A stretch of DNA of 53,031 nt, from positions 1 through 53,031 of the forward strand of contig JAFXHU010000035.1 of the NCBI GenBank assembly GCA_017533565.1. Direction: 5' to 3'. This stretch comes from Clostridia bacterium (GTDB lineage Bacteria; Bacillota; Clostridia; Oscillospirales; CAG-272). The translations under genes were made by a program, and so were the position numbers. The stretch's first letter is position 1, and the number at the start of each line of letters is the position of its first letter. Shown in pieces: positions 20,065 to 46,312 of this stretch. The notes below the pieces were generated by a model. That model did no database searches. It had not been told where the DNA came from and saw only the letters and a list, made by a program, of their open reading frames with translations.

Positions 20065-20078
20065 TTAAAGGAGTAAAT

Positions 20079-21370: not shown

Positions 21371-22098
21371 GAATGCTTACGCTTGCGAAAAGAAATACGA
21401 AGGAAATTCTTCGCGACCCGATAAATCTTGGCTTTGGGCTTGGATTTCCGCTTGTTTTGATACTGCTTTTAAGCGCAATTCAGGCAAGCATACCCGTAAG
21501 CCTTTTTGAAATAGAAAGACTTGCACCCGGTATTGCCGTTTTCGGGCTTTCCTTCGTAACGCTGTTTTCCGCTACCCTAATTTCAAAGGACAGGGGAAGC
21601 TCGCTTTTGCAAAGGCTTTATACCACTCCGCTTACCCCCGCCGACTTTATTCTCGGCTATACGCTTCCGATTTTGCCGCTTTCGCTTGCGCAAGGCTTGA
21701 TTTGCTATCTCGTTGCAATTCTTCTCGGACTTTCGCCGTCGGTTAATATCCTTATCGCGCTTGCGTTTATAATTCCGATTTCCTTGCTTTACATCGCGCT
21801 CGGTCTGCTTTGCGGAAGCGTCCTTAACGATAAGCAGGTGGGCGGAATTTGCGGTGCGCTTCTTACCAACCTTTCGGCTTGGCTTTCGGGCATTTGGTTT
21901 GATTTGGAGCTTGTCGGCGGTGTATTTGAGAAAATCGCAAATATCCTCCCCTTCCTCCACGCGGTGGAGCTTGAGCGCGCGGCGTTGGCGGGTAATTTTG
22001 CCGAAATAACGGGGCATCTTTTATGGGTGCTTGGCTATGCGGCGGCAACGCTTTTCCTTGCAATTCTACTATTCCTTCGCCAAATGAAAAGGCAGTAG
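21367..22098 (+). CDS. ABC-2 type permease
   Basis: 243 residues with six predicted membrane helices: about 22-42, 55-75, 98-122, 130-158, 165-185 and 215-237. The cytoplasmic stretch SKDRGSSLLQRLYTTPLTPADFI before the third helix is the coupling-loop motif of ABC2_membrane exporters. It forms the membrane part with the preceding ATPase, presumably as a homodimer. Confidence 0.9.
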   Translation: MRMLTLAKRNTKEILRDPINLGFGLGFPLVLILLLSAIQASIPVSLFEIERLAPGIAVFGLSFVTLFSATLISKDRGSSLLQRLYTTPLTPADFILGYTLPILPLSLAQGLICYLVAILLGLSPSVNILIALAFIIPISLLYIALGLLCGSVLNDKQVGGICGALLTNLSAWLSGIWFDLELVGGVFEKIANILPFLHAVELERAALAGNFAEITGHLLWVLGYAAATLFLAILLFLRQMKRQ

Positions 22099-22193
22099 GA
22101 TTTGATATATTAAAGGCGTGCGACCGATGCGGATATATCAACGCTTTTGGGAGAATACCGTCTTTTAACAAAGCTATCGGAGAATATAAAACA

Positions 22194-22219
22194 CCCGCCG
22201 CGGCATTTGCCGCGGCGGG
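22194..22219. terminator. Bidirectional terminator between convergent operons
   Basis: CCCGCCGCGGC (22194-22204) pairs perfectly with GCCGCGGCGGG (22209-22219) over ATTT. T-rich sequence follows on both strands (CTTCTTTC on plus, TGTTTTATATT on minus). Confidence 0.9.
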
Positions 22220-22241
22220 CTTCTTTCATTAAGTCTTACTC

Positions 22242-25200
22242 TTATGCTGCGGGGGTCTCCTCTTCTGCCTCGAGAAGCTCGTTGCAAAGCGTTAAGTAGT
22301 AGGTGTAAAGCGACTCGTATGCCTCGAATGCCGCCTTGTTGTCACCCTCAAGAGAGCCGTAAAGGCTTTCCAAGGAGCTGATTGTAGTTCTGATGTATTC
22401 AAGGCTGTCCTCGATATACGCCTCGTCACTGTAGTACAGGCTGTACTGATAGATAATGTAAGCGTATTCAAGGTCGATAAGTCCGAATATGACGTTTTGT
22501 ACCGCGTCGTTATATTCAGTATAAACAAACTCGTCGATTGCACCGTAGTAGCTGCTGTAGGAGCCGCCCTCCATAAGAAGGTGGTTGAGCTTTGCATCGG
22601 CGGAGAGCTTGCTGTACGCATTCATAATTGCGATAACCGTTTCGGCGTCAACAACGAATTCTATATCCTCGTAGAACAGGCTGTTGTAATACGGAACAAG
22701 GAGGTCGTACGCCAAATCAAAGAATTCCGCATAGCCAAACTCGTTATAGATGCTTATATCGCCAACCGCCGCGACAACGTACATTACGAAGTTGCTGCGA
22801 TATACGTCAACCATATAATCGTAGGTGTAGGCGTAGGTAACGGTTTCCTCCTCGCTTACCTGATACTCTATGACGTAAAGACGCTGGTGATAGAATGCCT
22901 TGATAATCTCCTCGTTACCGCTGTTGAGTATCGAGCTGGAAAGGCTTCTTGCTCTTTCATACGCGCTGAAGAAGATGTTGTAGAAGTAATAGCCCTCCTC
23001 GTCCATAAGCGCGTTGTCAATAGCGTATGACGCATCGTTCATAGCGACGATTGCGTCGTTAAGCTCGTCAAATACCTTCTGCCAGTCGCCAAGCTCTACC
23101 TCAACCTCGCCGTTTTCAAATACCGAAAGGACGCCTTCGCAGTTTGTCTTAAGGTCATCAAAGTAGCCAAGGAAGAGCTGTCTTTCCTCCTCGGATGCGA
23201 TTGCCGCAAAGCTGTCGCTGAAGGTCTGCATAGCATTCTTGTACTCCGCAATCCAGTCGTTCTTCTCGGTCCAGCCCTGCATATCAAATCTGCGGGAGTA
23301 GATTTCGTTAGCAAGCATAAGGGCGGAGTATGCCGCCTTTGCATTCTCGTCGGTAAGCTTGCTTGAGAAATATTCGTTAAGGTATCTGTTAAATCTAGCA
23401 ACGTATTCCGCGTTAGCATCTGCACCGTCAAAGGCGAACATAGGAGCTGCGGACATATAATAGGGCATAAGAGAGGAGAGGAACATATTCTGCTGCGTTT
23501 CGGTAAGAGAAAGGAACTGTGCAAGCATTTCTTCAACCGCCGCACCGAATTCGGGATTTGTTACGTATCCCTCCGCGTCGTCAATCTCAACCTTTACAGC
23601 AGCCATATATGCGTCCATAAGCGAATTGTATGCCTCAACGTCGAGAAGCGCGTGAGCAAGCTGCATTACGCCGCCAACGTAAATATCGTCGATAAGGTCG
23701 CTGAAGGTAACCGCGGATTCGTATCCGTCAAACACCGCGTTAACGGGAAGGCTGTAATAGAATACCGCGAGCATTTTTGCCTCCTCGGAGCTTTCCTCGG
23801 TAACTCCCGTAAACTCTACAACGTACTTAATAAGGCTGTAATAGTTGTAGAAGAATTCGGTTGTATCGTATTCGTAGCCGTATCCGATATAATCAAGCTG
23901 GGTAAGGACGGTGTTGATAAAGCTAACGAGATAATCAAAGCCCGTGGGGAGGCTTACGTATGCCATAACGTAAATTGCCTCTGCATCCTGTAAATTGTAG
24001 TAGTGGGTGTAAAGCGCATCGAAGGGCTTTATCCGGTCGTAATTTTCAAGCCAGGATGCCGCCTGCGCGTAAATCCAATAGTTTGTGGTGGAGATGTATT
24101 CGCCGTCCCTGATAAAGGCGTATAACGTTTCAACTCCGTCCTTGTAGGTTTCGGGGTCAAGCGTTGCCCAATCCGCGGGAATGAGAGGAAGGTAATTGTC
24201 GTAGAAGTCAAGCATATGCTCGAACATCGGAATCATTAGCGAGAACATTTCTCCGCCGACAACGGGAGTAAGTATGTACTTTTCCGCTTCCTCCGTCAAA
24301 GACTCGATGGAGGCGATTGCCATAAGCCTGTCGTACATTGTGTAGATGGGGCGGTCGGTTATCAAAAGACCCTCAAGCGCTGCCGCAACCGCCTCCCTGC
24401 TTTCACAGGTGAAGTAAATGTCCGCGCCGTAGAAATAGTCGTACTGATATTCAAACGCACCCGTGAAGCTCATAACGTCCTCCGCCCAAGCGTTGTAGCC
24501 GTAGATAAGTGCGGCACGCGCTACGGTCAAAAGGTCGGAATCCTTGATGAGAAGGGAGTCCGCCTTCGAGAGGTCGGCGTAAAGCTCCATAAGCGTGAGC
24601 GCAAGCTCTCCAAGCTCCTCGCTTACCTCGGGGATATTGTTATCCTCGAAATCAAGCTCGGCAAATTTGGAGATGTTGTCGTTAAACATCGACACGCTCG
24701 TGTAGGTTATTTTAATATTGAAGGAATAGGACCCGTCACCGAAAAGCACGGTGATTGTTTGGTCCTTCGTGGGATTTTCCGAATTAACAACCGAAAGGTC
24801 AAAGCCCTCTACGGTTACGCCCTCGTCGGTAAGCTTAACGTCCCTTGTGATTTTGCCGCCGTTACCCGAAAGGGTGAGGTAGCCGCCGTCAAGCGCGAGA
24901 GCCTCCTCGTGGCTGTTGTAGGATTTTTTGTTCGGTGCGCGAAGCGTTACGCTTTCAATATCGTAAATATTAACGGTAAACTTCGCCTCGTAGGAATATT
25001 CTCCGCTTACGTACTTTGCGGTTGCGAGAAGTCCGTTGCCTACGCAGGAGGAATCAAAGTCCTCTACCGTAACCTCGCTGTTGTTGAGAAGAACGGTGTA
25101 GGTTGTGCCGTCGTTTCTCGTGATACGAAGGCGACCCTTTGATTTGTTGAACTCGTCACCTACGAGATAGTCGGATACGTAGTCAACGACCTGCATTCTT

Positions 25201-25514
25201 TCAACGACCGTAACGGTAAGCTTGGTAGAGCCGCCGTTGTAGGAAACCGTGATTTCCTGCTCGCCGAGCTTGTTTTTGTCAAAGCCCGATACCGAAACGC
25301 CGTCGGCGTTCATTGCGATTTCCTCGGTCTTCTTTCCCGTTTTTACGAGAAGAGTACCCTTGGATAAGTCAAGCTCCTCGCCCAATACGTGTACGAGCTG
25401 GGGCTGTGCATCCTCTTTAACCGAGATTTCGGAGTCGGACTTACAGGAAACCGATACCGCCAAAACCGTTGCGATTAGGAGGACAAGCAATATGATTTTA
25501 CCTAACTTTTTCAT
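22242..25514 (-). CDS. Large lipoprotein with N-terminal Big_3 Ig-like domains
   Basis: 1090 residues. Signal peptide with lipobox VSVSC, lipidated Cys24. Residues about 37-275 are three Ig-like domains of the bacterial group 3 type (LGEELDLSKGTLLVKTGKK, then GFDKNKLGEQEITVSYNGG; the pattern returns twice). The remaining 800 residues are Tyr/Ala/Glu-rich and mainly helical, with no motif I recognise. GAGGTATAT precedes the ATG. It is the last gene of the MoxR/VWA operon, 43 bp after the LRR lipoprotein, and ends at a strong terminator. It is presumably displayed on the outer face of the membrane as a ligand binder or adhesin; that is an inference. Confidence 0.82.
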   Translation of the reverse strand: MKKLGKIILLVLLIATVLAVSVSCKSDSEISVKEDAQPQLVHVLGEELDLSKGTLLVKTGKKTEEIAMNADGVSVSGFDKNKLGEQEITVSYNGGSTKLTVTVVERMQVVDYVSDYLVGDEFNKSKGRLRITRNDGTTYTVLLNNSEVTVEDFDSSCVGNGLLATAKYVSGEYSYEAKFTVNIYDIESVTLRAPNKKSYNSHEEALALDGGYLTLSGNGGKITRDVKLTDEGVTVEGFDLSVVNSENPTKDQTITVLFGDGSYSFNIKITYTSVSMFNDNISKFAELDFEDNNIPEVSEELGELALTLMELYADLSKADSLLIKDSDLLTVARAALIYGYNAWAEDVMSFTGAFEYQYDYFYGADIYFTCESREAVAAALEGLLITDRPIYTMYDRLMAIASIESLTEEAEKYILTPVVGGEMFSLMIPMFEHMLDFYDNYLPLIPADWATLDPETYKDGVETLYAFIRDGEYISTTNYWIYAQAASWLENYDRIKPFDALYTHYYNLQDAEAIYVMAYVSLPTGFDYLVSFINTVLTQLDYIGYGYEYDTTEFFYNYYSLIKYVVEFTGVTEESSEEAKMLAVFYYSLPVNAVFDGYESAVTFSDLIDDIYVGGVMQLAHALLDVEAYNSLMDAYMAAVKVEIDDAEGYVTNPEFGAAVEEMLAQFLSLTETQQNMFLSSLMPYYMSAAPMFAFDGADANAEYVARFNRYLNEYFSSKLTDENAKAAYSALMLANEIYSRRFDMQGWTEKNDWIAEYKNAMQTFSDSFAAIASEEERQLFLGYFDDLKTNCEGVLSVFENGEVEVELGDWQKVFDELNDAIVAMNDASYAIDNALMDEEGYYFYNIFFSAYERARSLSSSILNSGNEEIIKAFYHQRLYVIEYQVSEEETVTYAYTYDYMVDVYRSNFVMYVVAAVGDISIYNEFGYAEFFDLAYDLLVPYYNSLFYEDIEFVVDAETVIAIMNAYSKLSADAKLNHLLMEGGSYSSYYGAIDEFVYTEYNDAVQNVIFGLIDLEYAYIIYQYSLYYSDEAYIEDSLEYIRTTISSLESLYGSLEGDNKAAFEAYESLYTYYLTLCNELLEAEEETPAA

Positions 25515-25557
25515 ATATACCTCTTGTTTTATAAAATACCTTTAAATTGTATACGTG

Positions 25558-28359
25558 TTAATTTGTCTCGCCAAGCTCTTCGTATTCGGGGATTTTCTCA
25601 TATATGGCGAAATATGTAGCTCCGTTTTCCGCACCGTAAATGCTTTCTGCAGTGTACTGTGCCTCGGTGGAGCCGCTTTTGCTTGACCAACCGACGAAGG
25701 TATAGCCCTTCAAAATAGGAGCAGATAACGTATTGCTGCTGTTTTTGTTTGTAATTGCGCCGGGCTTCTTTTCAAAGCCGACAACGTAGTCCTTGCTTTG
25801 TGAAAGGGTACAGCCCCATACCACGGGACGGTAGGAGGAATTCCAATATTTTTCAAAGCCGTCGGGTGCGGAGTCGTACTCGGTATAAACCGTAAGAGAG
25901 GTACAGCCGTAAAAGGCGTGCTTGTCAATGTCGGTTACGCTTTCCGGAATTACTATGCTCGTAAGGGAGGACCAGCCTCTGAATGCCTGCTTTCCTATCA
26001 CCTTAAGCGTGGTGGGGAGAATAAGCTCCTTAACCCCGCTAATTCCGTAGAAGGCGTATTTCTCTATCTCGTAAGCTCCGCCGAGGCTAACCTCCGTGAC
26101 CGCCCCGCATTTATAGAAGGCGTACTCGCCAACCGTCTTAAGGCTTTCGGGAAGGTGGATTTGCTTAAGCCTTTCGCACTTGTAAAAGGCTCGCGAGCCG
26201 ATTTCTTCAATTGCCGTGCCAAAGCTTACCGCTTCAAGCGACTCGCACTGATAGAAGGCTCTTTCGCCAATCAGCTCCACTTCGTTTCCGAGCCGAACTT
26301 CGCGAAGGGATACGAAGCCGTGAAAGGCATGCTCCTCTATAACCCTGACGCCGTCACCGATAATTAAAATATCTATTCCCTTGTAGGAGGATTCGGTGCT
26401 TCCGTCGCTGAGCGATGCTACAAGCTTCTCTCCGCAGCCGTAAAAGGCGTATGCTCCGATATATTCAACGCTCGACGGAATGATAAGGGTATCGTTAGCC
26501 GTATCAACCTCATCGTCGTAATATACGCTTGCACACTTGTAGAAGGCGGAGCGCCCGATGTGCTTTAGCATAGGGGGAAGATTAAACAGCTTAAGGCTGT
26601 CGCAATGGTAGAAGGTATAATCCTCTATAATCTCAAGAGTTTCGGGAAGCACGACCGTCGTAAGCTTTACGCACTGGTAAAACGCGGAGCGCCCGATAGT
26701 CTTTACGGAGGAGGGAATTGTGATGGAATAAAGCTGCTTGCATTTGTAGAAGGCGTAGTTGGATATGCCAACCGTGCCGTCGTTGATACTAACGTCGCTT
26801 CTTACGTTTTCGTTGAAGTCAACTACCCACTTGTCGGCGTAAACAACGCCCGTATAGCAGTTGTTGTAAATTGCCGTCCCCCTGAAAGCGTAGGAGCCGA
26901 TGCTCTTTACCGTATCGGGAATTACTATTTTTTCAAGAGAGCTGCAATCGCGAAAGGCGTAGCTTTCTATTACCTCGAGGCTGCTTTCCACAAGAGTGCC
27001 AAGCTCGTAATCGCAGGAGCCGAGAATAATGCTCGAAAGGCTCTCGCAATAGTCGAATGCCTGCTTTCCTATAACCTCGACGCCCGAGCCGATGACAACG
27101 TAGCTGATTTTAGAGCCTGCAAAGGCGCACGCGCCGATACGCTTTACGCTGTTTGGTAAATCCACGCTCGTAACAGTGCTGTTGGCGGAAAGCGCGTAAT
27201 TTGCGATTCCCACCGTGCCGTCCGCCACCGATACGTAGGTAACGGTGGTATCCTTAAGACCGAGGAACCATTTGCCGACGTAAACCTCGTTTGTTTCGGA
27301 GCTCGACCAAATGGGCGTATCCTCGAAGGCGGAAAGTCCGATTTCCTCGATTGCATCACCGATGGTAACGCTTTGAAGGGCGGAGCATTTATAAAACGCT
27401 TTCTCGCCTATAATTTTGAGCGCGTCGCCGAGGATTACCGACTCGATAAGCGGCAAGCCCGCAAAGGCGCAATCCGAAAGCTCGGTAAGACCGTCACCGA
27501 CCGAAAGCTCGGTTACGCTCTCGCAGTTTGAGAATGCGTATTCTCCGATTGTCTTGACGCTGCTCGGAATATTTATTTCGGTAAGAGAGGCACAGTCGGT
27601 AAAGGCTCTGTCACCGATTACCCCGACGCTCTCGCCGATTGTAAGGCTGCTGATTTTTGCACAGTAGGCAAAGGCGCTTGCGGGGATTTCGGTTACTCCG
27701 CTCGGAATAACGACGTCACAGGAAAGCGCGCGACAGCCCGAGAAGGCGTTCTCGCCCAAAGAGGTAAGTCCCTCGGGAATGTTGACCGAGGTAAGGTAGG
27801 AGCAGTTGGAGAAGGCGTACTCGCCTATCGTCCTTATACTGTCGGGAAGCGTTACCGTGTCGATATCGCTTTTGTTGAAAAATGCCTTTTTGCCGATTGC
27901 GGTGACGGGCTTTCCTCTGTATCTTTCGGGGATAACGATATTACCCGTTGCGATACCCTTGCCCGAAACCTCGTATTCCGTACCGCCGTTTATGAGTGTG
28001 AACACCATACCCGGCTCGGCTTCTCTTACGAACTCCTTGGAGGCAGACCATTTGGAGTCCCTGCTAACGCCGTCCTTGCCGTTAGCCATTACGGTTATCG
28101 TATATTTTCCTACGCCAAGCGAGGAAAGAGAGTAGGAGTTTTTGCTTGAGATTACCTCCTTTACCTCTCCGTTTTCGTTTTCTATGCTGATTGTATACAT
28201 ACGTGCGCCCTTTACCGTCTTCCAGGAAAGGACGAGGGTTGCCTCGTCGATTTCGACGTTTTCGGGCTTTGGCAATGCCTTTGCTTGGTTACACGAGCAT
28301 ACCGCCAGCAAGCAACAAATTATTAAGCTGAATAATATTAGTAAACGAAATACTTTCAT
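25558..28359 (-). CDS. BspA-type LRR lipoprotein
   Basis: 933 residues; AAAGGAG lies six bases before the ATG. Signal peptide with a likely lipobox ending at Cys23 (VCSC). Residues about 30-110 form a fibronectin III-like domain (VLSWKTVKGARMYTISIENE), about 130-840 are LRR_5 repeats (I..YAF..C..L..V.IP..V), and about 860-920 carry an InlB/Listeria-Bacteroides repeat (ILKGYTFVGWSSKSG). Such proteins bind host or microbial surface molecules in oral and gut bacteria. Sixth gene of the operon led by MoxR-type genes. A perfect hairpin separates it from the VWA gene upstream. Confidence 0.88.
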   Translation of the reverse strand: MKVFRLLILFSLIICCLLAVCSCNQAKALPKPENVEIDEATLVLSWKTVKGARMYTISIENENGEVKEVISSKNSYSLSSLGVGKYTITVMANGKDGVSRDSKWSASKEFVREAEPGMVFTLINGGTEYEVSGKGIATGNIVIPERYRGKPVTAIGKKAFFNKSDIDTVTLPDSIRTIGEYAFSNCSYLTSVNIPEGLTSLGENAFSGCRALSCDVVIPSGVTEIPASAFAYCAKISSLTIGESVGVIGDRAFTDCASLTEINIPSSVKTIGEYAFSNCESVTELSVGDGLTELSDCAFAGLPLIESVILGDALKIIGEKAFYKCSALQSVTIGDAIEEIGLSAFEDTPIWSSSETNEVYVGKWFLGLKDTTVTYVSVADGTVGIANYALSANSTVTSVDLPNSVKRIGACAFAGSKISYVVIGSGVEVIGKQAFDYCESLSSIILGSCDYELGTLVESSLEVIESYAFRDCSSLEKIVIPDTVKSIGSYAFRGTAIYNNCYTGVVYADKWVVDFNENVRSDVSINDGTVGISNYAFYKCKQLYSITIPSSVKTIGRSAFYQCVKLTTVVLPETLEIIEDYTFYHCDSLKLFNLPPMLKHIGRSAFYKCASVYYDDEVDTANDTLIIPSSVEYIGAYAFYGCGEKLVASLSDGSTESSYKGIDILIIGDGVRVIEEHAFHGFVSLREVRLGNEVELIGERAFYQCESLEAVSFGTAIEEIGSRAFYKCERLKQIHLPESLKTVGEYAFYKCGAVTEVSLGGAYEIEKYAFYGISGVKELILPTTLKVIGKQAFRGWSSLTSIVIPESVTDIDKHAFYGCTSLTVYTEYDSAPDGFEKYWNSSYRPVVWGCTLSQSKDYVVGFEKKPGAITNKNSSNTLSAPILKGYTFVGWSSKSGSTEAQYTAESIYGAENGATYFAIYEKIPEYEELGETN

Positions 28360-28381
28360 TCGTCGCTCCTTTCAAGTATTT

Positions 28382-28405
28382 CCTTGCCGCAAAAATGCGG
28401 CAAGG
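28382..28405 (-). other. Intercistronic hairpin
   Basis: CCTTGCCGCA (28382-28391) pairs perfectly with TGCGGCAAGG (28396-28405). It lies between the double-VWA gene and the LRR lipoprotein gene and is not followed by T residues on the minus strand, so it may be a stabilising or processing element rather than a terminator. Confidence 0.7.
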
Positions 28406-28417
28406 CTCGTGCAAAGG

Positions 28418-31153
28418 CTATGCCTTTCTTTTTGCATCGTCTGCTTTTTTCATTTTATGCTCTTTGATAAGCTCGTGGGGCCACTTGAATTTAAACTTGC
28501 GAACCGCAACGTCGATAAGGACCGCTACGATAGCAATAATAAGCAGTACGACACGCGGGTCGTATTCCATTTTCACCGTTTTATCAAAGCCGTTAAACGC
28601 TTCTGCTGCGTCCTCAAGCTCCGCGCCCTTTCCGTCGCTTGCTATGGCGGCAAGAAGCTCCGCGCCGAGGGGTGTTCTGTCGTTCGCAAGGCTGTATTCC
28701 TCGGAGTAGGAGAAGGTGTGGTGAATTGAGAATTCCGAAATAAGAGCCTCGTATTCGTCGTATCTTTTGATTATTATTTCGTAAAGTCCCGCGTCCTTTA
28801 TCTCGAATACAAAGCGTCTGTTGCCCTCCGCCACGGTCACGGGAATACCCTTTTCCATAAGGTCAACGAGAGAATCGGAAAGCGGCTTAACCTCCACCTC
28901 TACTCTGTTGTCCTCGGGCACGCCGTAAACGGTGATTTGGTTGGTGTAGTTATCGCTTTTTAAAATGTATTCTATTCCGTCCGCCCGAATATCGTGGGTG
29001 GGGAACAGGCCGTCAACTATGTTGAGGATTATCGCCTGTCCGATAATATCGTCAAGGAATGCCCTCGACCACTCTCCGTTAAGGTCGGACATAAAGCTTC
29101 CGACGTTACCCTCGCCGTATTGCCACTGTGCGTATATGGGAACGTACTCGCCCATAAGGGGGACAACCGCACCCTCCTTTTTGACCGTGCCGTAATAGCC
29201 CGAAAGCTTTGGAAGTGCCGAATTGTCGATGCCCGAAACGACGGGCGTTTTATCCTTTATGGTAAGGTTGAATTCCTTGCCGTAGGCAATCTCCGCGATA
29301 GCCTCAAGCGCAAGGTCATTCTGCATTATCTCGGGAATCTTCTTATAATCGGTAACGTTGTGGTGCGCGCCTCCGCCCTTTTCGGCGGTTTCATCCATAG
29401 CGGAAATGTCGCTGTCGCTCATAGAGCCGACGGTAATTATCGACATCGTTATGTTGTTTTCGGCTAAATTTGCCTCTATATAAGCTCCGTAGGTTTCAAG
29501 CCTGTCGGACGGCTTACCGTCCGTAACCATAATGATATGCTTCTTTTCTACGTTTTCAATAACCTGGAGGGCTTTTCCCGCGCTTATAATAGCGTCGGTA
29601 AACACCGTGTCACCCATATCCTGGCTTTTTCTCAAATTGTCGATAGTATCGCGGATTTGCTCCTTTTGGGAAACGGGAATAATCTTTTGCTGCTCGCTCG
29701 CCGATGCCTGGAAGGTCATAATTCCGCAGAAATCCCTCGGGCTGAGTGAGTCAAGGCACGCCTCCGCACCGTCAAGCGCAAGGTCGTATTTGGTTTCTCC
29801 GCCAACCTCCTCCGCCATAGAGCCGGAAGCATCGACGACAATCATTACCGCAACGGGTGGAGTAAAGTCGATTGCACTTACGGGAAGCATCTGCTTATAG
29901 TAGGTGGAGCTTTCAAGGTCCACTCTGTTATACGCGTGCGGAATAGGCTTTGAAACGGTGCCGTCGTTATATCCGCCGACCGTGAAAAGTCCGCCGCCAA
30001 GGTCGTAAACGAACCTGTTGAGAAGCTCCTCAAAGCCCGCGGGCATATCGCTGTACGCGATGTTCACGAGAATAACCTGCTCGTATTTTGCAAGCTCCTC
30101 GATATCTCTCGGGATTTGGCTGAAATCGTTCTGAATGCTGAGCGTCGTAACGTTGTAGCTGTCACCGAATACCGCCTGCATCTCCGCGGATTCGCCCGCG
30201 TATTTTTCGATAAGAAGAATATTGTTAAATTCCTGTATGTTTACAAAGGTATGGTAGGCGTTGTTTTGCACCACCGTATCCGTTTTGCTCTCTATTTTAA
30301 AGTCAAGCTCGTGAAGTCCGCGCTCGTCAAGCGAGATTTCAAGAGGGATATGCATCTCGTTGCTCGTAAGGGTAATCTCCGCCTCGCCAACCGCTTTGCC
30401 GTTATCGGTAAAGGAAAGGGTAACGGGAATTTCGCTCTTGATATCAACGTTTGTTTTGATGTACATATCAATCTGGAAGGGAAGACCGAGGACGAAATGC
30501 TGCTCGGGAATGGATACCGAAAGAATTTGAACGTCGTTTTCGTTGTCCGCGGGGTAGTGGACGGTATCAACCTTAATTCCGTGGTGCGAGGAGATTGACT
30601 TTATAACCGACAACGCCTCTCCGTCGGTTTCAACACCGTCGGAAATCAGGACGATTTTTCCGCTTTCGGGGTGGTTAAACAGCCCCTTCGCATATTCGAG
30701 CGCCCCCGCAATGTTGGAGGCGGAGGTGTCGGGGTCCTCGGATTCCGCGTAAGCGGTGATAAGCCTCTCCGTGTCGTCGGAAAGCTCCGCCACGTATTTT
30801 TGGTCATAGCCAAACTTTACAATTCCGACGTTGTATTCGCCGTCCGCAACGTTGACTACGGATTCAACGAAGCTGTCCTTTTCCTGTCTTTCGGTTTCAC
30901 CGCTTTCGGATACGTCAACGAGGAGGATTACCTCGTTTTTAACGTTGGGCGTTTCGTAAACGAAGCCGATGCCCGCCAAAAGGTTGACCGCAATAGTAGA
31001 GGCAACGAGGAACATAACGAGCGAAACGATACGGTTTCTCGTGCGGCGGTATTTTTTTGGAGTTACGAAATGCGGAATAAAGGCAAGCAGTAATATCGGA
31101 ATTAACAGCAACAGGAGCCAAGGGTGGCTGTATTCAATTTTAAAATGAGTCAT
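28418..31153 (-). CDS. Membrane protein with two VWA domains
   Basis: 911 residues. Two N-terminal helices (about 11-30 and 43-66), then a VWA domain with MIDAS DVSES (80-84), a beta-rich stretch, a GATase1-like segment (about 310-430), a second VWA domain with DASGS (441-445) and KHIIMVTDG, and a C-terminal helix (about 866-886) with a basic tail. The bulk is outside the membrane. This layout is seen in large BatB/YegL-like partners of MoxR systems. It begins 17 bp after the BatA-like gene. Two intact metal-dependent adhesion sites suggest binding of two protein partners, perhaps the lipoproteins encoded next. Function inferred. Confidence 0.85.
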   Translation of the reverse strand: MTHFKIEYSHPWLLLLLIPILLLAFIPHFVTPKKYRRTRNRIVSLVMFLVASTIAVNLLAGIGFVYETPNVKNEVILLVDVSESGETERQEKDSFVESVVNVADGEYNVGIVKFGYDQKYVAELSDDTERLITAYAESEDPDTSASNIAGALEYAKGLFNHPESGKIVLISDGVETDGEALSVIKSISSHHGIKVDTVHYPADNENDVQILSVSIPEQHFVLGLPFQIDMYIKTNVDIKSEIPVTLSFTDNGKAVGEAEITLTSNEMHIPLEISLDERGLHELDFKIESKTDTVVQNNAYHTFVNIQEFNNILLIEKYAGESAEMQAVFGDSYNVTTLSIQNDFSQIPRDIEELAKYEQVILVNIAYSDMPAGFEELLNRFVYDLGGGLFTVGGYNDGTVSKPIPHAYNRVDLESSTYYKQMLPVSAIDFTPPVAVMIVVDASGSMAEEVGGETKYDLALDGAEACLDSLSPRDFCGIMTFQASASEQQKIIPVSQKEQIRDTIDNLRKSQDMGDTVFTDAIISAGKALQVIENVEKKHIIMVTDGKPSDRLETYGAYIEANLAENNITMSIITVGSMSDSDISAMDETAEKGGGAHHNVTDYKKIPEIMQNDLALEAIAEIAYGKEFNLTIKDKTPVVSGIDNSALPKLSGYYGTVKKEGAVVPLMGEYVPIYAQWQYGEGNVGSFMSDLNGEWSRAFLDDIIGQAIILNIVDGLFPTHDIRADGIEYILKSDNYTNQITVYGVPEDNRVEVEVKPLSDSLVDLMEKGIPVTVAEGNRRFVFEIKDAGLYEIIIKRYDEYEALISEFSIHHTFSYSEEYSLANDRTPLGAELLAAIASDGKGAELEDAAEAFNGFDKTVKMEYDPRVVLLIIAIVAVLIDVAVRKFKFKWPHELIKEHKMKKADDAKRKA

Positions 31154-31170
31154 CTATATCCTTGCTCCTG

Positions 31171-33063
31171 TCATAGTTTCTTTCTTGTTTCAATTACCCG
31201 TTCAACGAGCATAAGAGCCACGAGTGCTATGGCAAACCACAGTATGAGGTCGCGGAAATCAATTCCGTTTTGCCTTTCATAGCTTAAAATCGGAAGCTCC
31301 TCTATTTCCTTTGTTATATCGCTTTCCTCGGTGGGAATGTGAACGTGAAAGTTCTCGATAATAAGCTCGTCGCCCTGCATAGGACGTTGAGTTACCGTGT
31401 ATGTTCCGGGGGTTGTAACGAGCAGAGAGCCGCTTTGACCCTCAAGCTCCATATTTACGCCGCCTCCCGAAACGGTGACGTTTGTTCCTCTGCCTGTAAT
31501 TTCAACCGTATCGCCGATTTCAAACGAATTGCTCTCGAGCGTTTGCGGGATAAAGTAATTAAAGAGGTTATACATCATAAACGAGAAGTCGGGTATAGCG
31601 ATAAGGTTGGAGTAGTGAACGTCAAACGCCCAAACCACAATCTTTTCGCCGCCGTCCTCCTTTGCGAGGATTACGGGCTTTCCGTTATAGTAGGCAAGCT
31701 CCTCGTATCCCGTTGCAGAAAGGATTTCCTTGTATCTTGCGATCGTAATGCGGCTGGAGTCAACGTATTGCATAAGCTCGTGTGCCACACCCGAGGCGAG
31801 CGAGGAGTTAGCGGTTACGTCCACGTCCTCTCCCACAACGATATCCGACCCCTTCGGTCCGCTTTCGGGGTTAACCAAAAGCACGATACCGTCGGTGGGA
31901 ATGCTTTCGGGCATCTTATGCTCAAAGATATAAAGGTCAAAGCCCTCGGTAGCCGCCTCCTCGTTTTTATCAAGCTGCTTAAATTCTATATCCCACTTAT
32001 CTCTCATATTTTGGCGAATGGTACGGATTACGCCGCCGAAAAAGAGGTTTGGCTTTGAGGATGCGTATTGAATTTTAATCGTGGAGCGCTTTCCTCCGTA
32101 AAGGAAGAACAGGTTATCTTCGGTAAACGAATCGCTAACCGAATCGTTAAATGAAACGTAAACCTCCAAATAGTCGTAGGAGAAAAGAGGTGCGGAGCCA
32201 AAATCGTCGGGCGTGAAAAGTATTCGCTTTTCCTGCTCGGTGGGGTCAAAATAGTCCGCCCTTTGCAGGGATACGGTTTGCTCCTTTCCGTTAGCTCCGT
32301 GAACGATAAGGTTGGCTGTAACAGCCTTCGTTTCTCCGTAGCAGCCGACGTCAACGGCAATTTCGTAGTAGTTGCTGTCGTTGAGTTTAGCCGTAACGTT
32401 CAAAACCGCGGCATTCCAGTCATCCTCGTGGGAAACGTCGATAACGTTAACCTTGTTTTTGTTGAGGTACTTGGTTGCGGTTATAAGATAAACGCTCGCA
32501 TCGTTATTGCGGTCGAGAATATCCGAGGCAATGTCAATTGCTCCGTTAATGTCGGCGGTGCCGTGCGTGCATTCAAGCTCATCAAGCGCAGCGTAAAGCA
32601 TCTCCGCCTCGCTGCTATCCACCTGCTTTAAAAGGTATTCTGCATACGAGTCGGCGAAAATTACGGAAACAAGGCTTTCGTTTGAGAATGCCTCCTTTGC
32701 AAGCTCCTCCGCCTTCTCGATTGCTCTTTGAAATCTCGTTTCGTTGTCGTAGGAAACGAGCATGCTTGCCGAGCCGTCGATGATAATAACCTTTTCATTC
32801 GGGTCGGAGGACTCCGTAGCTGCGAGGACGGGCTGTGCAAGCAAAAGACCGCAAATCGTGAGTATCAAAAGCTGGCAGATGAACTGAATTATATTCTGAA
32901 GCCTGTTAACGGGCATCTTTCTTTTTTTGTATTTCAAGCTAAGTCGCCAGACGTACGTGCTGGAAACCGTCTTGTTTTGATAATTAGGCTTGATAATGTA
33001 GATTACGATAAGCGCAACTACACCTATAAGCCCCAATAAGCCTATTGGAACAAGCCATATCAT
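31171..33063 (-). CDS. BatA-like VWA membrane protein
   Basis: 630 residues. The N-terminal helix (1-24), a conserved cytoplasmic loop (SSTYVWRLSLKYKKRKMP) and a second helix (about 57-80) match the BatA/Aerotolerance N-terminal domain. A VWA domain follows with MIDAS DGSAS (96-100), then a long beta-rich extracytoplasmic region and a last helix (about 602-622) before a basic end. The start overlaps the DUF58 stop by 4 bp. In MoxR operons such proteins sit at the membrane and work with the ATPase in folding or metal loading of partners. The substrate is not known. Confidence 0.87.
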   Translation of the reverse strand: MIWLVPIGLLGLIGVVALIVIYIIKPNYQNKTVSSTYVWRLSLKYKKRKMPVNRLQNIIQFICQLLILTICGLLLAQPVLAATESSDPNEKVIIIDGSASMLVSYDNETRFQRAIEKAEELAKEAFSNESLVSVIFADSYAEYLLKQVDSSEAEMLYAALDELECTHGTADINGAIDIASDILDRNNDASVYLITATKYLNKNKVNVIDVSHEDDWNAAVLNVTAKLNDSNYYEIAVDVGCYGETKAVTANLIVHGANGKEQTVSLQRADYFDPTEQEKRILFTPDDFGSAPLFSYDYLEVYVSFNDSVSDSFTEDNLFFLYGGKRSTIKIQYASSKPNLFFGGVIRTIRQNMRDKWDIEFKQLDKNEEAATEGFDLYIFEHKMPESIPTDGIVLLVNPESGPKGSDIVVGEDVDVTANSSLASGVAHELMQYVDSSRITIARYKEILSATGYEELAYYNGKPVILAKEDGGEKIVVWAFDVHYSNLIAIPDFSFMMYNLFNYFIPQTLESNSFEIGDTVEITGRGTNVTVSGGGVNMELEGQSGSLLVTTPGTYTVTQRPMQGDELIIENFHVHIPTEESDITKEIEELPILSYERQNGIDFRDLILWFAIALVALMLVERVIETRKKL

Positions 33064-33959
33064 GCCATAATACCCACCTTTAAAAGTTCCTTGAACAGCG
33101 TTTTTTCAATCGGCTGGTCGGTGCAAACGGTAACGAAGCCCGCCTCTCTTGAGTTAGCGAAGCTCTTAAGATCGTTAAATATCTCCTGCAGCGCAGTTTC
33201 GTATGCGATTTGCGCGCTTCTGTCGATATTCATTCTCATATTTCTCGGGTCAAGCTCGTCGCCCGCCTCGGAGTCCAAAAGATTTACTCTACCGGAGTAA
33301 AGCGGCTCTCTTTCCTCGGGGGTTATGACCTGAACGAGAAGCACCTGCCTTTCCTTGTAGCACAAATAATCTACGGCGCTTTTCCAATCGCTGTCCGTGA
33401 AAAAGTCGGAAATAATTACCGTAAGACCGTCGTTGTTTCCCTGATTAGGTGCGTTGATGATTGCCGAGCGAAGGTCGCACTCTCCCTCGAATTCAAGCTC
33501 GCCAAGCGAGCTTATCGCGTTGAAGAAGGCTCTCTTTCCCACGAGCGTGCCGAAGGGGTCCTCGGATTTTTCGCCCTTTATGAGCTTAAAGGATACCTTG
33601 TCCATATTATGTACGGAAAGATAGCCGAGTGCCGCCGCAACCGCAACCGCGTATTCCGCCTTCTGGGGCGAGTTTTTGCCCATAGAGGCGGAGCAGTCAA
33701 GGAAAATTTGTGTATGCATCTGTCTTTCGTCGGTAAAAAGCTTCAAGAAATATTTCTCAAAGCGGCTATACAAATTCCAGTCTATTCGTCTTATATCGTC
33801 ACCGAGCATATACTCGCGGTAATCGGCAAATTCAACCGTCTGTCCGTACGTGCGAACAAGATGCTTTCCGCCGAAGAAGCCCGCGAGGTTTGCTCGCAGC
33901 TCCAACGACAGTGTTTCTAAACGACTGAAAAATTCATCGTTTAAGTAAGTGCCCTTCAT
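33060..33959 (-). CDS. DUF58 domain protein
   Basis: 299 residues, cytoplasmic. The DUF58 core is clear: FADYREYMLGDDIRRIDWNL (44-63) with FEKYFLKLF after it, followed by a VWA-like fold with DCSASM (88-93) and VIISDFF near 180. DUF58 proteins accompany MoxR ATPases almost everywhere and are thought to be their adaptor. Starts 4 bp after the MoxR stop and overlaps BatA by 4 bp. Confidence 0.93.
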   Translation of the reverse strand: MKGTYLNDEFFSRLETLSLELRANLAGFFGGKHLVRTYGQTVEFADYREYMLGDDIRRIDWNLYSRFEKYFLKLFTDERQMHTQIFLDCSASMGKNSPQKAEYAVAVAAALGYLSVHNMDKVSFKLIKGEKSEDPFGTLVGKRAFFNAISSLGELEFEGECDLRSAIINAPNQGNNDGLTVIISDFFTDSDWKSAVDYLCYKERQVLLVQVITPEEREPLYSGRVNLLDSEAGDELDPRNMRMNIDRSAQIAYETALQEIFNDLKSFANSREAGFVTVCTDQPIEKTLFKELLKVGIMA

Positions 33960-33963
33960 TTAC

Positions 33964-35031
33964 TTATTTTCTCCCGAATTTTTTCTTCTTTTCCTCTGCT
34001 GCGGGTGCGCTTTCTTCCTCGTTTACCGTAGGCTCGTTTGCAAGCTTGCCCTTGTGGGTAAGCTCGTCGATAATCATTTTAACAATCTCGTCGGGCGAAA
34101 CCTTCTCTGCGATAGCCTCGAAGGTAAGCTTCATTCTGTGACGGAGAACGGGGTATGCAAGCTCGTTTACGTCGTTGTAGGATACGTTGTATCTGCCGTT
34201 CATAAGAGCCTTTACCTTTGCCGCGGAGATAAGCGCCTGACCTGCTCTCGGAGATGCGCCAAGACGAACGTACTTCTTTGCCGCCTCGCTTGCACACTCG
34301 CTGTCGGGGTGGGTAGCCAAGCAAAGCATCATTGCGTATCTCATAACGTCCTCCGCAACGGGAATTTGGTTTGCGGTTGCTCTCATTTCAAGAAGGTCCT
34401 TGCCGTTACAAGCCGCGTCCGCAACCTCCGCCATCGTTTTCTGCGTCATATTAACGATGTCCATAAGCTCGTTAAGAGAGGGGTTCTTTACAATAATTTT
34501 GAACATAAAGCGGTCCATCTGTGCCTCGGGAAGGGGATACGTACCGTCCTGCTCGACGGGGTTCTGGGTTGCAAGCACGAAGAACGGCTCCTCAAGCCTT
34601 CTCGATACGCCCATTACGGTAACGGTATGCTCCTGCATCGCCTCGAGCAATGCCGACTGTGTCTTGGGGGTAGCACGGTTAATCTCGTCCGCGAGAATAA
34701 TGTTGGAGAATACGGGACCGGGCTGGAACTGGAAGGATGAGTTTCCGTTTTCGTCCTTTACGATGATGTTTGTACCCGTAACGTCCGCGGGCATAAGGTC
34801 GGGGGTAAACTGAATTCTGGAGAAGGGAAGGTCGAAAACTCTTCCGAGAGAGCGTACAAGACGGGTCTTTCCAACTCCGGGAACACCCTCGAGAAGGACG
34901 TTACCGCCCGCAATCATCGCGATAACCGCGCCCTCGATTACCTCCTTTTGACCAATTACGTCTCTTTCAATCTGTGCAAAGATATTCTTGCATTGCTCGC
35001 TGAATTTCTGAATGTGTGCCTCTGTAACCAT
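33964..35031 (-). CDS. moxR: MoxR-family AAA+ ATPase
   Basis: 355 residues from ATG 35031 (AAAGGTG six bases upstream; an in-frame GTG three codons earlier overlaps that site). Walker A GVPGVGKT (49-56), Walker B IILADEINRA (111-120), sensor 1 FVLATQNPVE, and the AAA_3/lid segment with SPRAGQAL (arginine finger region). A 25-residue Lys/Glu-rich tail (EESAPAAEEKKKKFGRK) extends the C-terminus. MoxR ATPases act as chaperones that activate or load metals into partner proteins with VWA domains, of which three are encoded just downstream. Confidence 0.95.
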   Translation of the reverse strand: MVTEAHIQKFSEQCKNIFAQIERDVIGQKEVIEGAVIAMIAGGNVLLEGVPGVGKTRLVRSLGRVFDLPFSRIQFTPDLMPADVTGTNIIVKDENGNSSFQFQPGPVFSNIILADEINRATPKTQSALLEAMQEHTVTVMGVSRRLEEPFFVLATQNPVEQDGTYPLPEAQMDRFMFKIIVKNPSLNELMDIVNMTQKTMAEVADAACNGKDLLEMRATANQIPVAEDVMRYAMMLCLATHPDSECASEAAKKYVRLGASPRAGQALISAAKVKALMNGRYNVSYNDVNELAYPVLRHRMKLTFEAIAEKVSPDEIVKMIIDELTHKGKLANEPTVNEEESAPAAEEKKKKFGRK

Positions 35032-35141
35032 TTTTGTCACCTTTCTGTCATTTGGAAAATATTTATTTTTATTTTTTTAATCCTTGCTTGCATTGAGAAA
35101 AGCCGTCGGCTCTTCTCGTTTATGCCGCGAAGCCGCGGCGG

Positions 35142-36278
35142 TTAAATACTGTCGTAATAAAGCTCGAAAAATTCGCGGTATTCGGGGGGGATTTCTCCGT
35201 ATTCCTCAAAAATCTGCTGCGAGTATTCGTAATAATAGTCAAGGGTGTCCTTGTAGTAGGTTTTGCCGTCGTAAATCATATTCGTTTCCTCCCATTTACC
35301 GCCGGCACCGTTGCCCTCCTGGTTATTATTACCTTCGCCCTCGCCTCTGTCGTCGCTGTCCTGGTTTCCGTCGTTTTCACCCTCGGAGTTGTCCTGCTCT
35401 CCCTTTTCGCCCTCCTCGCCGGTTTCTCCCTTGGAGGACTCGGAGCCGCTTTCGGACGGCTCATCCTCCGCGCTGTCGCCCTCGTCGCCCTCGCGCGAGG
35501 GTCCCTCGGAGCTGTCGCCCGCTTCGCCGTAATCGCCCTCCTCGATTTCCTCAAAGATTGCGATAAATTCCATAGGCTCGGTTATGCCTTTGTCGTGTCT
35601 TGACGGGTCGGTGGAGTCGTCGTCCCAGCCAATGAATATCCAGCCGTCGTCTGCCACCGCAACGACGGGGTCGGCGTCGCCGCCGGGAGCAACGAGCTGC
35701 TCCTCCTCACCGCCCGTGATATATCCGCCCTCCTCTACTACGTAGGAAACGGGAATATAATCCTCGTACGGGTCGTCGGGGTTTATAAGGGTGCTTCCGT
35801 CGGGAATAATACCGCCGTCGGCAAGCGCCACAACCGTCGTCATTGACGAGCCGAGCAGAGCTGCACAAACCGCAACCGCGATAAGAGCCGCGGAAATCCG
35901 AAGTTTAAGCCTTCTGTCCTTAACCCTTTCGTAATGTATTTTTGCATTCTCGCGCTGCAGCGAGGCAATGTAGGAGTCGTCGTTTTCGTATTCGAGCATA
36001 GTAATCATTCGCTCGTCAAGTCCAAAGCGGTCAACTCTCCTTGCGGTTTCCTTTATATCGGGCTTGAAATGCAGGAAGTAAGCCAAAGCACCGCTCACGA
36101 GCGCAACTGACGCAAATACGCAAATGGCAATCCAAAAGCTTCCAAAGCCAAAGAGCCACTCCGAGGCGGCGAAAAGGAAATTCGCTGCAAATCCCGCAAC
36201 AAGACCGAGCAGGGCGGATTTTAACGCCGCCTCAAAGCACAGCCTTGAATAATGCCTTTTAAGTTCGTTTTTAATCAT
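35142..36278 (-). CDS. Acidic three-helix membrane protein of the MoxR operon
   Basis: 378 residues. Membrane helices at about 18-40, 47-69 and 127-152, with a charged cytoplasmic loop (residues 71-126). Outside, residues 175-247 look like an InlB-type repeat (VSYVVEEGGYI, WIFIGW, EFIAIFEE), 248-328 are a Glu/Gly/Asp/Ser/Asn-rich linker, and the end (KWEETNMIYDGKTYYKDTL onward) is ordered and Tyr-rich. It occupies the place that DUF4175-like or other membrane proteins take in MoxR operons. GGAG precedes the ATG by 8 bases. First gene of the operon, 110 bp before MoxR. No enzyme motif seen. Confidence 0.75.
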   Translation of the reverse strand: MIKNELKRHYSRLCFEAALKSALLGLVAGFAANFLFAASEWLFGFGSFWIAICVFASVALVSGALAYFLHFKPDIKETARRVDRFGLDERMITMLEYENDDSYIASLQRENAKIHYERVKDRRLKLRISAALIAVAVCAALLGSSMTTVVALADGGIIPDGSTLINPDDPYEDYIPVSYVVEEGGYITGGEEEQLVAPGGDADPVVAVADDGWIFIGWDDDSTDPSRHDKGITEPMEFIAIFEEIEEGDYGEAGDSSEGPSREGDEGDSAEDEPSESGSESSKGETGEEGEKGEQDNSEGENDGNQDSDDRGEGEGNNNQEGNGAGGKWEETNMIYDGKTYYKDTLDYYYEYSQQIFEEYGEIPPEYREFFELYYDSI

Positions 36279-36373
36279 TTAATTTCTCCTGTGCTTGGTT
36301 GATTCTATATAAATGAAAGAGGAATTGAAAAATCATTTCCCCTTTGATTTACACAGAATTTTCTGTATAAATC

Positions 36374-36461: not shown

Positions 36462-39400
36462 TTATTTGGGGGAGGTTGTCGAAAGGTTAACGTTGAACGA
36501 ACCGGTTTCTATCGAAGCGTAGTCGTAAATATTAACTACGATGTAGTAAGTACCTGCCTCGAAGCTCTGCTGAATTCCGAAGTTGTTCCATTCGCTGTAA
36601 TCCCAATATCCGTCAAAGCCGTAGCCGATTTGGCTCATATTCTCGTCGTAAAGCAAAGCGTAGGTGTCAAGACCCAAATCGCTCGTGCTCCAGAGATAAT
36701 AGGTGCCCGCCTCGGTTATGGTAAACTTGAGATAAATTCTTTCGCCTTTCGTGTCAACGGTAACGGTTGTGGGAGTATCCTGATTAAGCTCGAATGCGTG
36801 TGCTGCATCCGTACCTCCAAGAAGCTCCTCCTCGGTCATCCACCTTGCGTAAAGAGTAGTCTTTTCTGCATTATAGTAAGAGCCGGAAACAGCCGAGCCG
36901 CTGAACTCGGGGTTGTTATACCAGCCCGCGAAGAACAGGTCGCTCTGATTTTCAAGAACGGGAAGGGTAATAGCATACTTGGACGTCATGCTCTCAACGG
37001 GGCCGCCAAGCTCGGTTACGAAGCTGTAGGTTACGTCCTCGCCCGACCAACCGAAGATGGTCTGGCAGCTATCGTTGTTCCAGTAGGAGTCCCAAGTAGA
37101 GGGAAGCGCGCTATCCTTGAAGAGAAGGAGGGGCGTTCCGCACTGCGAGAATGCGTTGCTCATACAGTAAATGATACCCGTGGGGATAACGATGCTGTCG
37201 AAATTACCCGCCTGGTAGAATGCGTTCTGGTAGATTGCCGCAATTCCCTCGGGAAGAACGAGGTTGGTTTCGCTTCCCGTATAGCCGAGAAGGAAGTTAC
37301 CGGTAATGTTGTCAACGTTCCAGGATACGTAAACGTCCTCAAGGTAAATGGTTACGTAGCCGTTCTCGTCAACCGAAAGTCTTCTTTCGCCGCTGGTGGG
37401 AGTGAAGATGTTCTTTGCGTAGTAGCCCGCAAGACCCCACTGCTTAATGTCGCTTTCGGACATAGAGGACTTGTTGTAAACCTCAAGAAGCTTCGTACAC
37501 TCGTAGAAGGAGTAGGTTCCCATAGAGGTAAGGTTGGAGGGAAGCTCTACGTACATAAGGTTCTTACAAGCGTTGAACGCATCGTCACCGATAGTGGTAA
37601 GCCTTTCGGGAAGAACGAGCGTGGTAAGACCCGTACAGCCGTAGAATGCGGAGTCACCGATAACAAGGGGTGCCGTTCCGCCCTCCTCGAAGATGATTTC
37701 CTTAAGCTCGGTCATACCCTTGAATGCGGCAGAGCCGATTTCGGTAAGCTCCTTCGGGAAGGTGATGCTGGTTGCGCTGAAGCTCGGAGGACAAGCAACG
37801 AGAGTCGTCATATCCTTCGTATAAATGATGCCGCCGACAACGGTAAGCGTCTTGTGCGTTTCGGGAACGATAAACTCTTGTACACCCGAATTAAGGAAGC
37901 AGTTCGCACCGATAGAGGTTACGTAGTCGGGAAGAGCAATCGAGGTAAGCGCGGTACAGCCCTCGAACATATTCTGCGAAAGCTCGGTAGCCTTCGTGTT
38001 GAGTACTACGTTAGAAAGCGCGGTACAGTTCTTAAAGATGCTGTGACCAAGCTTTGTTACGGTTACGGGAACGGTAAAGCTCGTAAGGCCCGTGCAGTAC
38101 ATAAACGCCTCATCGCCAAGCTGGATTACCGATGCGGGAACCTCGAACTCTGTAAGCGCGGTACAGTTGTAGAATGCCTTGCTACCGATGAGAGTGCATA
38201 CGCTGCCGCTTGCAAACTCTACCTTCGTAAGGCTCATACAGTTCTCGAATGCGCCGTAGCTGTAATAGTTGTTGGGGTTACGGCTTTCAATCTCTCTTAC
38301 GCTTGCGGGAATCTTAATCTCGGTAAGACCCGTGTTCATAAACGTACCCATAGGAATTACGGTAAGCTTGCAGTCGCTTGCAAACTCAACCTTGGTAAGC
38401 TTGGAGCAAAGGCGGAAATTGCTTCTGCCCATAGTTTCAAGGCCGGAGCCGAAGTAAACGTACTCGAGCGACTGAAGGTTTTCAAAGTTGCATTCGCCAA
38501 GAGTCTTAAGACCGTTGCCGAAGTAAACTCTCTTGATACCCGCGTTGATAGCGGACGAGGATGCGAAGTTGTAGCTGCCCATAGTAACAAGACTGTCGGG
38601 GAAGGTTACCTCGGTAAGGCTCGCGGTATTGATAAATACGTAGTTGCCGATGGTGGTAAGCTTCGAATTCTCGCCAAAGGAGATGCTGTTAAGGTCGGTG
38701 TTATTTTCGAACACGTAGTCACCGAGAGCAACGAGTCTTTCGGGAAGCTCAATCTTTTCAAAGTGGGTGTGTCCGAATGCGTAATCACCGATTGCAAGAG
38801 CGCTTTCGCCGCCCTCTGCGAAGGTTACGTTAAGCTTTCCGCAATACTGGAATACGTTCTTGCCGATAACCTCAACCGTGTTAGGAATCTCTATGGAGAG
38901 AAGCGCGGTTGCGGAGTTGAAGGCGTTGTCGCGAATTTCAATAAGACCCTCGGGAAGAATAACGGTTTCAAGCATTGCGTTGTTAAGGAATGCCTTCTCC
39001 GCGATAATCTTCGTGCCGGGAAGGACGGTGTAGGTCGTTCCCTCGCGATTTGCGGGATAGTAGATAAGGGTGGACTTGTCACCGCTGTAGATAACGCCGC
39101 CGTCGGAGTAAACAACCGAAACGCCGTCAGCCACGATGGTTTGAAGCGCGGTACAGCCCTCTATCATACCAAAGCTGAAATCTGCAAGGTTCTTCGGGAG
39201 AGTGATGGAGGTCATCGACGTACAGCCCGCGAATGCGGCGTTGCCGATAACGACGTTAGCCTCGCCTGCCTCGAACTTGATTTCGGTAATCTTGGTACAA
39301 TCCTTGAATGCTTCTGCGTTAACCTTGGTTACCGTTGCGGGAATGGTGATAACACCCTCAACGCCCGCGGGGCAGAAGATAAGCTCGGTAAAGTCGGCAT

Positions 39401-46310: not shown

Positions 46311-46312
46311 AA

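Follow-up and report, generated by a model that had tools for sequence, protein, structure and literature searches.

The window analysed here, a stretch of 53,031 nucleotides, is a whole contig (JAFXHU010000035.1, our C30) of a Clostridia bacterium assembly (GCA_017533565.1; 1.71 Mb, 77% complete). Its minus strand carries an eight-gene block in which a MoxR ATPase, a DUF58 protein and membrane proteins with VWA domains stand beside large lipoproteins. We call the products, in order of transcription, P8, P7, P6 (MoxR), P5 (DUF58), P4 (BatA-VWA), P3 (double VWA), P2 and P1. An earlier note on this DNA had listed seven minus-strand open reading frames (ORFs) at 22242-36278, all of which we find in place and on that strand; the eighth member, P8 at 36462-44777, had been overlooked.

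Layout of the block

The genes and transcription signals of the block are as follows.

36462-44777, minus strand: P8, giant BspA-type leucine-rich repeat (LRR) lipoprotein of 2771 residues, directly upstream of P7 (Pfam LRR_5, 699 bits, and Flg_new; lipobox)
36302-36331, minus strand: promoter-like site before P7 (consensus match only)
35142-36278, minus strand: P7, membrane protein with acidic outer part (three predicted transmembrane (TM) segments; conserved cytosolic loop; InlB-B-like repeat at 22.7 bits, cut-off 23.6)
33964-35040, minus strand: P6, MoxR AAA+ ATPase (Pfam AAA_3, 207.6 bits against a cut-off of 27)
33060-33959, minus strand: P5, DUF58 protein with DxSxS (PF01882, 114.7 bits against a cut-off of 23.4)
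31171-33063, minus strand: P4, BatA N-terminus and VWA (BatA 30.0 bits against a cut-off of 25.9, VWA_2 45.4 bits; three predicted TM segments, VWA predicted outside)
28418-31153, minus strand: P3, double-VWA membrane protein (two VWA stretches; GATase1-like stretch at 26.7 bits, cut-off 27; basic cytosolic loop; RKFKFKW tail)
28382-28405, minus strand: hairpin between P3 and P2 (z -2.8), followed by AAAUAC, without a T-run (U-run)
25558-28359, minus strand: P2, lipoprotein of 933 residues, fn3-like, BspA-LRR and Flg_new-like (LRR_5 493.5 bits; lipobox)
22242-25514, minus strand: P1, lipoprotein of 1090 residues with N-terminal Big_3 (43.1 bits)
22193-22220, minus strand: terminator-like hairpin after P1 (12 pairs, 11 of them GC)

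The genes are closely packed, with a 4-bp overlap between P4 and P5 and a 4-bp spacing between P5 and P6. P6 may start with the ATG at 35031 instead of the GTG at 35040, given that the relative at locus L018 begins with MVTE. The earlier description of P1 as an immunoglobulin (Ig)-like lipoprotein is matched by Pfam at residues 44-103 (Big_3), with no other match at E <= 0.05 beyond them. Positions 194-269 of the P1 family profile weakly match the N-terminal part of the solved LRR proteins 4fdw and 4fd0 (E 0.007-0.009).

Lacking a T-run, the hairpin in the P3-P2 gap does not fit the pattern of an intrinsic terminator, and no minus-strand terminator was called within 28360-28417, as had been claimed for the interval between the VWA and LRR genes. 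The hairpin at 22193-22220 is likely the end of the transcription unit. Across the window, promoter-like sites number 32 against 13.7 in shuffles and terminator-like sites 30 against 19.3, an excess that makes any single site weak evidence. A search of the whole window with Rfam at gathering scores returned one tRNA as its sole match.

The lipoprotein slots across related loci

Relatives were collected by scanning an alignment of five P3 proteins of the window's type (type A) against genome contigs, and the locus counts given here refer to the best 80 of 241 relatives (L038-L117). Their hosts, labelled Clostridia, narrower groups or uncultured bacterium, are nearly all metagenome-assembled genomes (MAGs); two are named-strain records, Pumilibacter intestinalis (L069) and Anaerocaecibacter muris (L092). 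At all 80 loci P3 is followed by an LRR gene as its next neighbour on that strand, with a median gap of 10 bp (range -118 to 144). P3 is broken into two ORFs at L065, and at L038 P3 and the LRR gene are separated by an extra P3-like ORF of 545 residues. Once the P2 starts are moved to sites near the lipobox, the two genes overlap at 31 loci, and at 22 of the 80 the P2 start overlaps the P3 stop by exactly 4 nt. As a control, 0 of 141 genes outside the block at the same loci have a same-strand LRR gene next to them. Just outside the block, the first genes at 67 loci belong to 55 families (the largest with 5), a set that includes contig-edge fragments and perhaps a few unrecognised block members; hence the adjacency of P3 and P2 is not a matter of general synteny.

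The gene in this slot is, by its sequence, one specific family rather than any LRR protein. A profile of the P2 N-terminal domain trained on half of the loci recognised 40 of 40 slot genes in the held-out half, and 2 of 27 other LRR ORFs. This domain is, on profile matches, fn3-like: its Pfam fn3 score of 23.3 bits narrowly misses the cut-off of 25 and is close to the scores of other Ig-like families, and its profile matches fn3-type domains of known structure, the best at E 8e-5 and the rest more weakly. A loose lipobox pattern is present in 80 of 85 P2 proteins, and the lipoprotein cysteines of P2 and P1 are conserved at 90% or more.

The same picture appears within the window's genus, where type A P3 proteins (over 700 bits) occur at 11 loci in 8 of 69 genomes, 10 of them with an LRR gene next and the eleventh being the lone gene L205 discussed below; these counts share contigs with the 80 loci (L041, for example, is G023:C17) and are not independent of them. 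The link between the VWA and lipoprotein genes that the earlier note had proposed, for which it had asked for a comparison in relatives, is thus borne out by the 80 loci and their control, and is backed further by the exact 4-nt overlaps and by the co-divergence of P2 with P3 and P4 described below. On these genomic grounds, we regard a dedicated connection between machine and lipoproteins as very probable.

The alternative here is that the operon is all they share, so that ordinary surface lipoproteins are co-expressed with an envelope MoxR/VWA system that never touches them. BspA-LRR stretches are indeed common in the window's own genome (91 matches) and P1 is exchangeable, as would be expected on this account. 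It sits poorly, however, with an adjacency kept at every locus with a P2-specific N-terminal domain, with the way P2 follows its own P3 in multi-copy genomes, and with a sister clade in which a different lipoprotein family occupies this slot. We therefore consider it rather unlikely.

That sister clade emerged from a quick tree of 84 of 125 P3 rows, with type A thinned. Type A (45 rows) and type B (16 rows) each form a single clade with Shimodaira-Hasegawa-like approximate likelihood ratio (SH-aLRT) support of 100, and type C (23 rows) lies on one side of a branch with support of 92. In type B, P3 is followed by one family of lipoproteins of 470-675 residues at 16 of 16 counted loci, a count that omits L031/L032 (G011:C14). 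In two clades the machine is therefore accompanied, as far as gene content tells, by a lipoprotein family of its own in that slot. No LRR gene stands next to P3 at any of the 23 type C loci; at 15 of them two genes, mostly encoding about 300 residues, precede P7, and in both loci tested (L190, L192) they encode an ABC ATPase and an ABC-2 permease. Those two loci belong to L189-L203, a run of clostridial MoxR-DUF58-VWA-VWA operons that have no LRR gene beside them.

P3-like proteins are found in 61 of 392 class-level genomes (E <= 1e-40) and in 8 of 394 order-level genomes (E <= 1e-50; at least 80% complete, the window's own set apart). The block is patchy in the window's genus, whose members sit on several branches of clade A, a pattern that suggests lateral transfer.

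The outer slots are filled more freely. Directly upstream of P7 there is an LRR gene at 48 of the 53 loci where the upstream gene is visible; the five exceptions comprise three ORF fragments at contig edges and two real ones (L064 and L097). The gene after P2 is P1 at 35 of the 80 loci, another protein of more than 1000 residues at 19, another LRR protein at 1 and a small or opposite-strand gene at 19, and the contig ends at 6. Twenty-one proteins of about 1450-1785 residues form one homologous lipoprotein family, which occurs together with P1 at none of the 80 loci. Strong P1-like matches were found at 9 loci in 7 of the 69 same-genus genomes, one of them (G066) cut by a contig end, and all 9 have a type A P3 on the same contig, about 3 kb away; 11 further genomes of the genus gave weak matches only, mostly to the N-terminal Ig-like part. 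One short P1 (L059) was excluded from the family alignment (A5). P2 thus looks, from gene order, like a near-obligate partner of the machine, with P1 exchangeable.

Kinship among P1, P2, the family of about 1700 residues and the type B lipoproteins was considered and not adopted: seven pairwise hhalign comparisons gave 25-47 columns at probabilities of 19-89, five of them overlapping at the N-terminus or signal peptide, and the best pair, P1 and the family of about 1700 residues, covered 47 N-terminal columns. The families are treated as unrelated. In one genome of the genus (G029), an additional lipoprotein of 1149 residues with 11 Flg_new stretches follows P1 (L022:6631-10080).

Protein features, co-divergence and known systems

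The ATPase, DUF58 and VWA motifs are well kept. Walker A and B patterns are present in 94 of 94 MoxR family members, and the solved chain nearest to P6 is 2r44. In the P5 family, D88, S90 and S92 are kept in 67 of 67 type A, 15 of 15 type B and 21 of 21 type C proteins. The metal ion-dependent adhesion site (MIDAS) of the second VWA domain of P3 (D441/S443/S445/T516/D545) is found in 91 of 91 type A proteins, and D80 in 90 of 91. The RKFKFKW-type tail of P3 occurs in 91 of 91 type A, 0 of 16 type B and 0 of 23 type C proteins, a constancy due partly to selection because the motif also served as a scan pattern. The P3 family profile weakly matches the solved BatB structure 3ibs (E 0.0007).

Hydropathy places two N-terminal and one C-terminal TM segments in both P3 and P4, with three called in 115 of 130 P3 and 116 of 123 P4 proteins; an extra hydrophobic segment in the window's P3 (422-440) probably belongs to the second VWA domain as one of its strands. 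The inner loops of both proteins are strongly basic and the large loops acidic; their VWA domains should therefore lie outside. By the same approach P7 has three TM segments in 89 of 97 members, with its acidic tail predicted outside, and P5 has none in 97 of 103. The window's own genome, 77% complete, encodes LspA, and a search of it for Omp85 detected none, which fits a cell lacking an outer membrane.

Co-divergence was assessed from pairwise distances at 50 loci with six full genes. P2 distances correlate with those of P4 (r 0.77), P7 (0.70) and P3 (0.67), and after removal of the DUF58 distance partial correlations of 0.62, 0.52 and 0.46 are retained. MoxR shows almost no coupling (partial 0.11 with P2 and 0.05 with P3), in part because it varies little, at a mean identity of 0.79. 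In multi-copy genomes (14 loci in 7 genomes, leaving out both G074 copies and L084, which has no full P2), P2 and P3 share their nearest locus in 10 cases, and the copy from the same genome is nearest to P2 in none.

The outer parts diverge fast, at mean identities of 0.28 for P1, 0.36 for P7 and 0.39 for P2, and LRR and fn3 domains are recognition folds. Both points are what one would expect of a receptor, in which the lipoproteins would bind an outside ligand, P3, P4 and P7 would signal inward, and MoxR and DUF58 would be threshold or response parts rather than an outward motor. MoxR-vWA pairs have been proposed as thresholding chaperones in conflict systems (PMC7159879), and the bifidobacterial PFNA cluster as a sensor of host signals (PMC8430577). 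Against such a role, Pfam finds no kinase, effector or DNA-binding domain in the eight proteins, and copies of the block without MoxR and DUF58 would have no response part. We judge the receptor account unlikely.

The combination of MoxR, DUF58 and a BatA-type VWA protein is shared with the Bat operon (MoxR-DUF58-BatA-BatB) of Bacteroides and spirochaetes. In Borrelia, BB0173 was found experimentally to have three TM helices and a VWA domain on the periplasmic side (PMC5700661), the same topology as predicted for the VWA proteins here. The block differs from the Bat operon in that P3 has two VWA domains and a GATase1-like stretch, and in its constant LRR or Ig-like lipoproteins. BatC, BatD and BatE (TPR, BatD) have no Pfam match in the eight block proteins, the rest of the genome not having been searched. 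A role in metal loading or in the maturation of redox or respiratory complexes, with the lipoproteins incidental, would accord with the BatA N-terminus of P4 and with NorQD, a MoxR/VWA pair needed for metal insertion (PMC13036017). In the eight proteins, however, Pfam finds neither a metalloenzyme nor the Bat accessory or TPR proteins, and the constant neighbours are lipoproteins. Such a role is very unlikely, and metal loading was dropped as the principal interpretation for want of a metalloenzyme neighbour.

The PFNA cluster (pkb2-fn3-aaa-atp-duf58-tgm) also encodes MoxR and DUF58 next to a large secreted protein of fn3 type, and its authors suggest that MoxR may help fold FN3 (PMC8430577). 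Its five core genes as listed there include no pair of BatA and double-VWA membrane proteins; the block described here has LRR lipoproteins instead, with one fn3-like domain in P2, and no PFNA-type kinase or transglutaminase has a Pfam match among its eight proteins. Among the systems compared here, PFNA is the closest precedent for MoxR and DUF58 with a surface protein, which lowers the novelty of the present case and fits the explanation favoured below.

NorQ/NorD, CbbQ/CbbO, RavA/ViaA and Midasin share with the block an AAA+ ring with a VWA partner. They differ in that the block has two VWA proteins with a predicted outward orientation, and DUF58 would be the cytosolic VWA-like partner. With the MoxR-vWA ternary conflict systems the block shares a MoxR/VWA core with further components, and P6 passes the bpMoxR cut-off (40.8 bits against 27), although its AAA_3 match is far stronger. 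VMAP, iSTAND, FtsH, beta-propeller and effector parts have no Pfam match in the eight proteins; the PADLOC library was not run. P2 and P8 resemble BspA-type LRR surface proteins in their LRR_5 arrays, Flg_new-type repeats and lipobox, and among the literature matches listed none reports such proteins as fixed MoxR/VWA partners.

A candidate machine and its surroundings

The best explanation, which we would back at about even strength, is a membrane-spanning MoxR/VWA machine with outward MIDAS domains, dedicated to surface lipoproteins. MoxR and DUF58 would form a cytosolic engine, and P7, P4 and P3 would be membrane proteins whose conserved basic loops or tails lie in the cytosol and whose large VWA/MIDAS or acidic parts face outward. 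The MoxR ring, cycling through ATP, would pull or twist the cytosolic parts of these three proteins, an action argued from the NorQD analogy, since NorQ has been proposed to rotate the VWA domain of NorD and stretch a linker (PMC13036017). The outer MIDAS sites would grip P2, lipid-anchored and composed of fn3-like and LRR parts, which would serve as both adaptor and subunit, so that P8 and P1 could be folded, built into a cell-surface complex or moved within it. P8 and P1, or its substitute of about 1700 residues, are the further lipoproteins of the block, and a single engine might serve several membrane and lipoprotein sets per cell. The ATP-driven mechanical action, argued by analogy, is tentative and falls a little short of evenly balanced. 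That the machine assembles or gates adhesins, as the earlier note suggested, is something we infer, the label "adhesin" being drawn only from LRR, Ig-like and lipobox features.

Several observations weigh against this explanation. The topology derives from hydropathy and charge only, and the same approach also marks a single weak segment in 42 of the 94 MoxR proteins, covering the Walker A region in the window's protein, which we take as a false call. The distance correlations share species history, and the narrow range of MoxR lowers its values. The locus counts come from the best-scoring third or so of the relatives, as stated above, and P1 is not universal. A lone P3-like gene without a P4 or LRR neighbour (L205; G074:C136) is a counter-example; it was left out of the type A families and the tree. 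The engine itself is not always in place. MoxR and DUF58 are both seen at 58 of the 80 loci; at 5 the contig breaks off upstream and DUF58 is the only one of the two in view, and 10 are unassigned; at 5 loci both are absent and P7 abuts P4, and at two (L043, L050) a MoxR gene cut by the contig edge adjoins P4 with no DUF58 between. The second copy of the block in the window's own genome (G000:C26, L020) also has neither. Of six genomes with engine-less copies, three have no MoxR over the Pfam cut-off, their assemblies being perhaps incomplete. Close MoxR genes do occur elsewhere in the other three. One engine could possibly be shared in trans by the MoxR-less copies. By tblastn, MoxR is present in G011:C32, G016 and G001.

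Apart from these points, the ORF of L205 (818 residues, alone) and the extra one between P3 and P2 at L038 both have a lipobox-like start, and are perhaps secreted VWA relatives.

MoxR/VWA machines are widespread, and to our knowledge few of their clients are known. Comparative genomics now gives them a definite candidate partner, with one lipoprotein family per machine clade, and the client question is directly testable since two hosts are named strains rather than MAGs. No title or abstract among the literature matches listed ties MoxR/VWA genes to BspA/LRR lipoproteins, and none of those matches describes ATP-powered control of surface lipoproteins. The arrangement could hint at how such Clostridia deploy very large surface lipoproteins. 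A broader and doubtful extension would be a transmembrane energy transducer for cells without an outer membrane, in which a cytosolic AAA+ ring would act through outward VWA/MIDAS domains on giant LRR or Ig-like lipoproteins at the cell surface, assembling, extending or releasing them, with several orthogonal membrane and lipoprotein sets per cell sharing one ATPase.

Directly upstream of P8, at 45270-52498 on the minus strand, lie genes of an oligopeptide-type ABC transporter (two ATPases, two permeases and a substrate-binding protein). An OppF-like gene holds the same position in G023 (L018) and not in G029 (L021), and the transporter was not counted as a block member. On the other side, a TetR-type regulator, an ABC ATPase and an ABC-2 permease (20058-22098, plus strand) converge with the operon; genes whose starts are very similar to this set are found in G029 on the downstream side of the block (L022:11281-12737). 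Further along, a plus-strand gene at 17525-19741 encodes a protein of 738 residues that has MORN repeats and matches Sel1 below threshold. A minus-strand gene at 8576-10270 encodes a TIR-LRR fusion of 564 residues, with TIR_2 (1e-20) and a BspA-type LRR array (1.5e-83), which is possibly defence-related.

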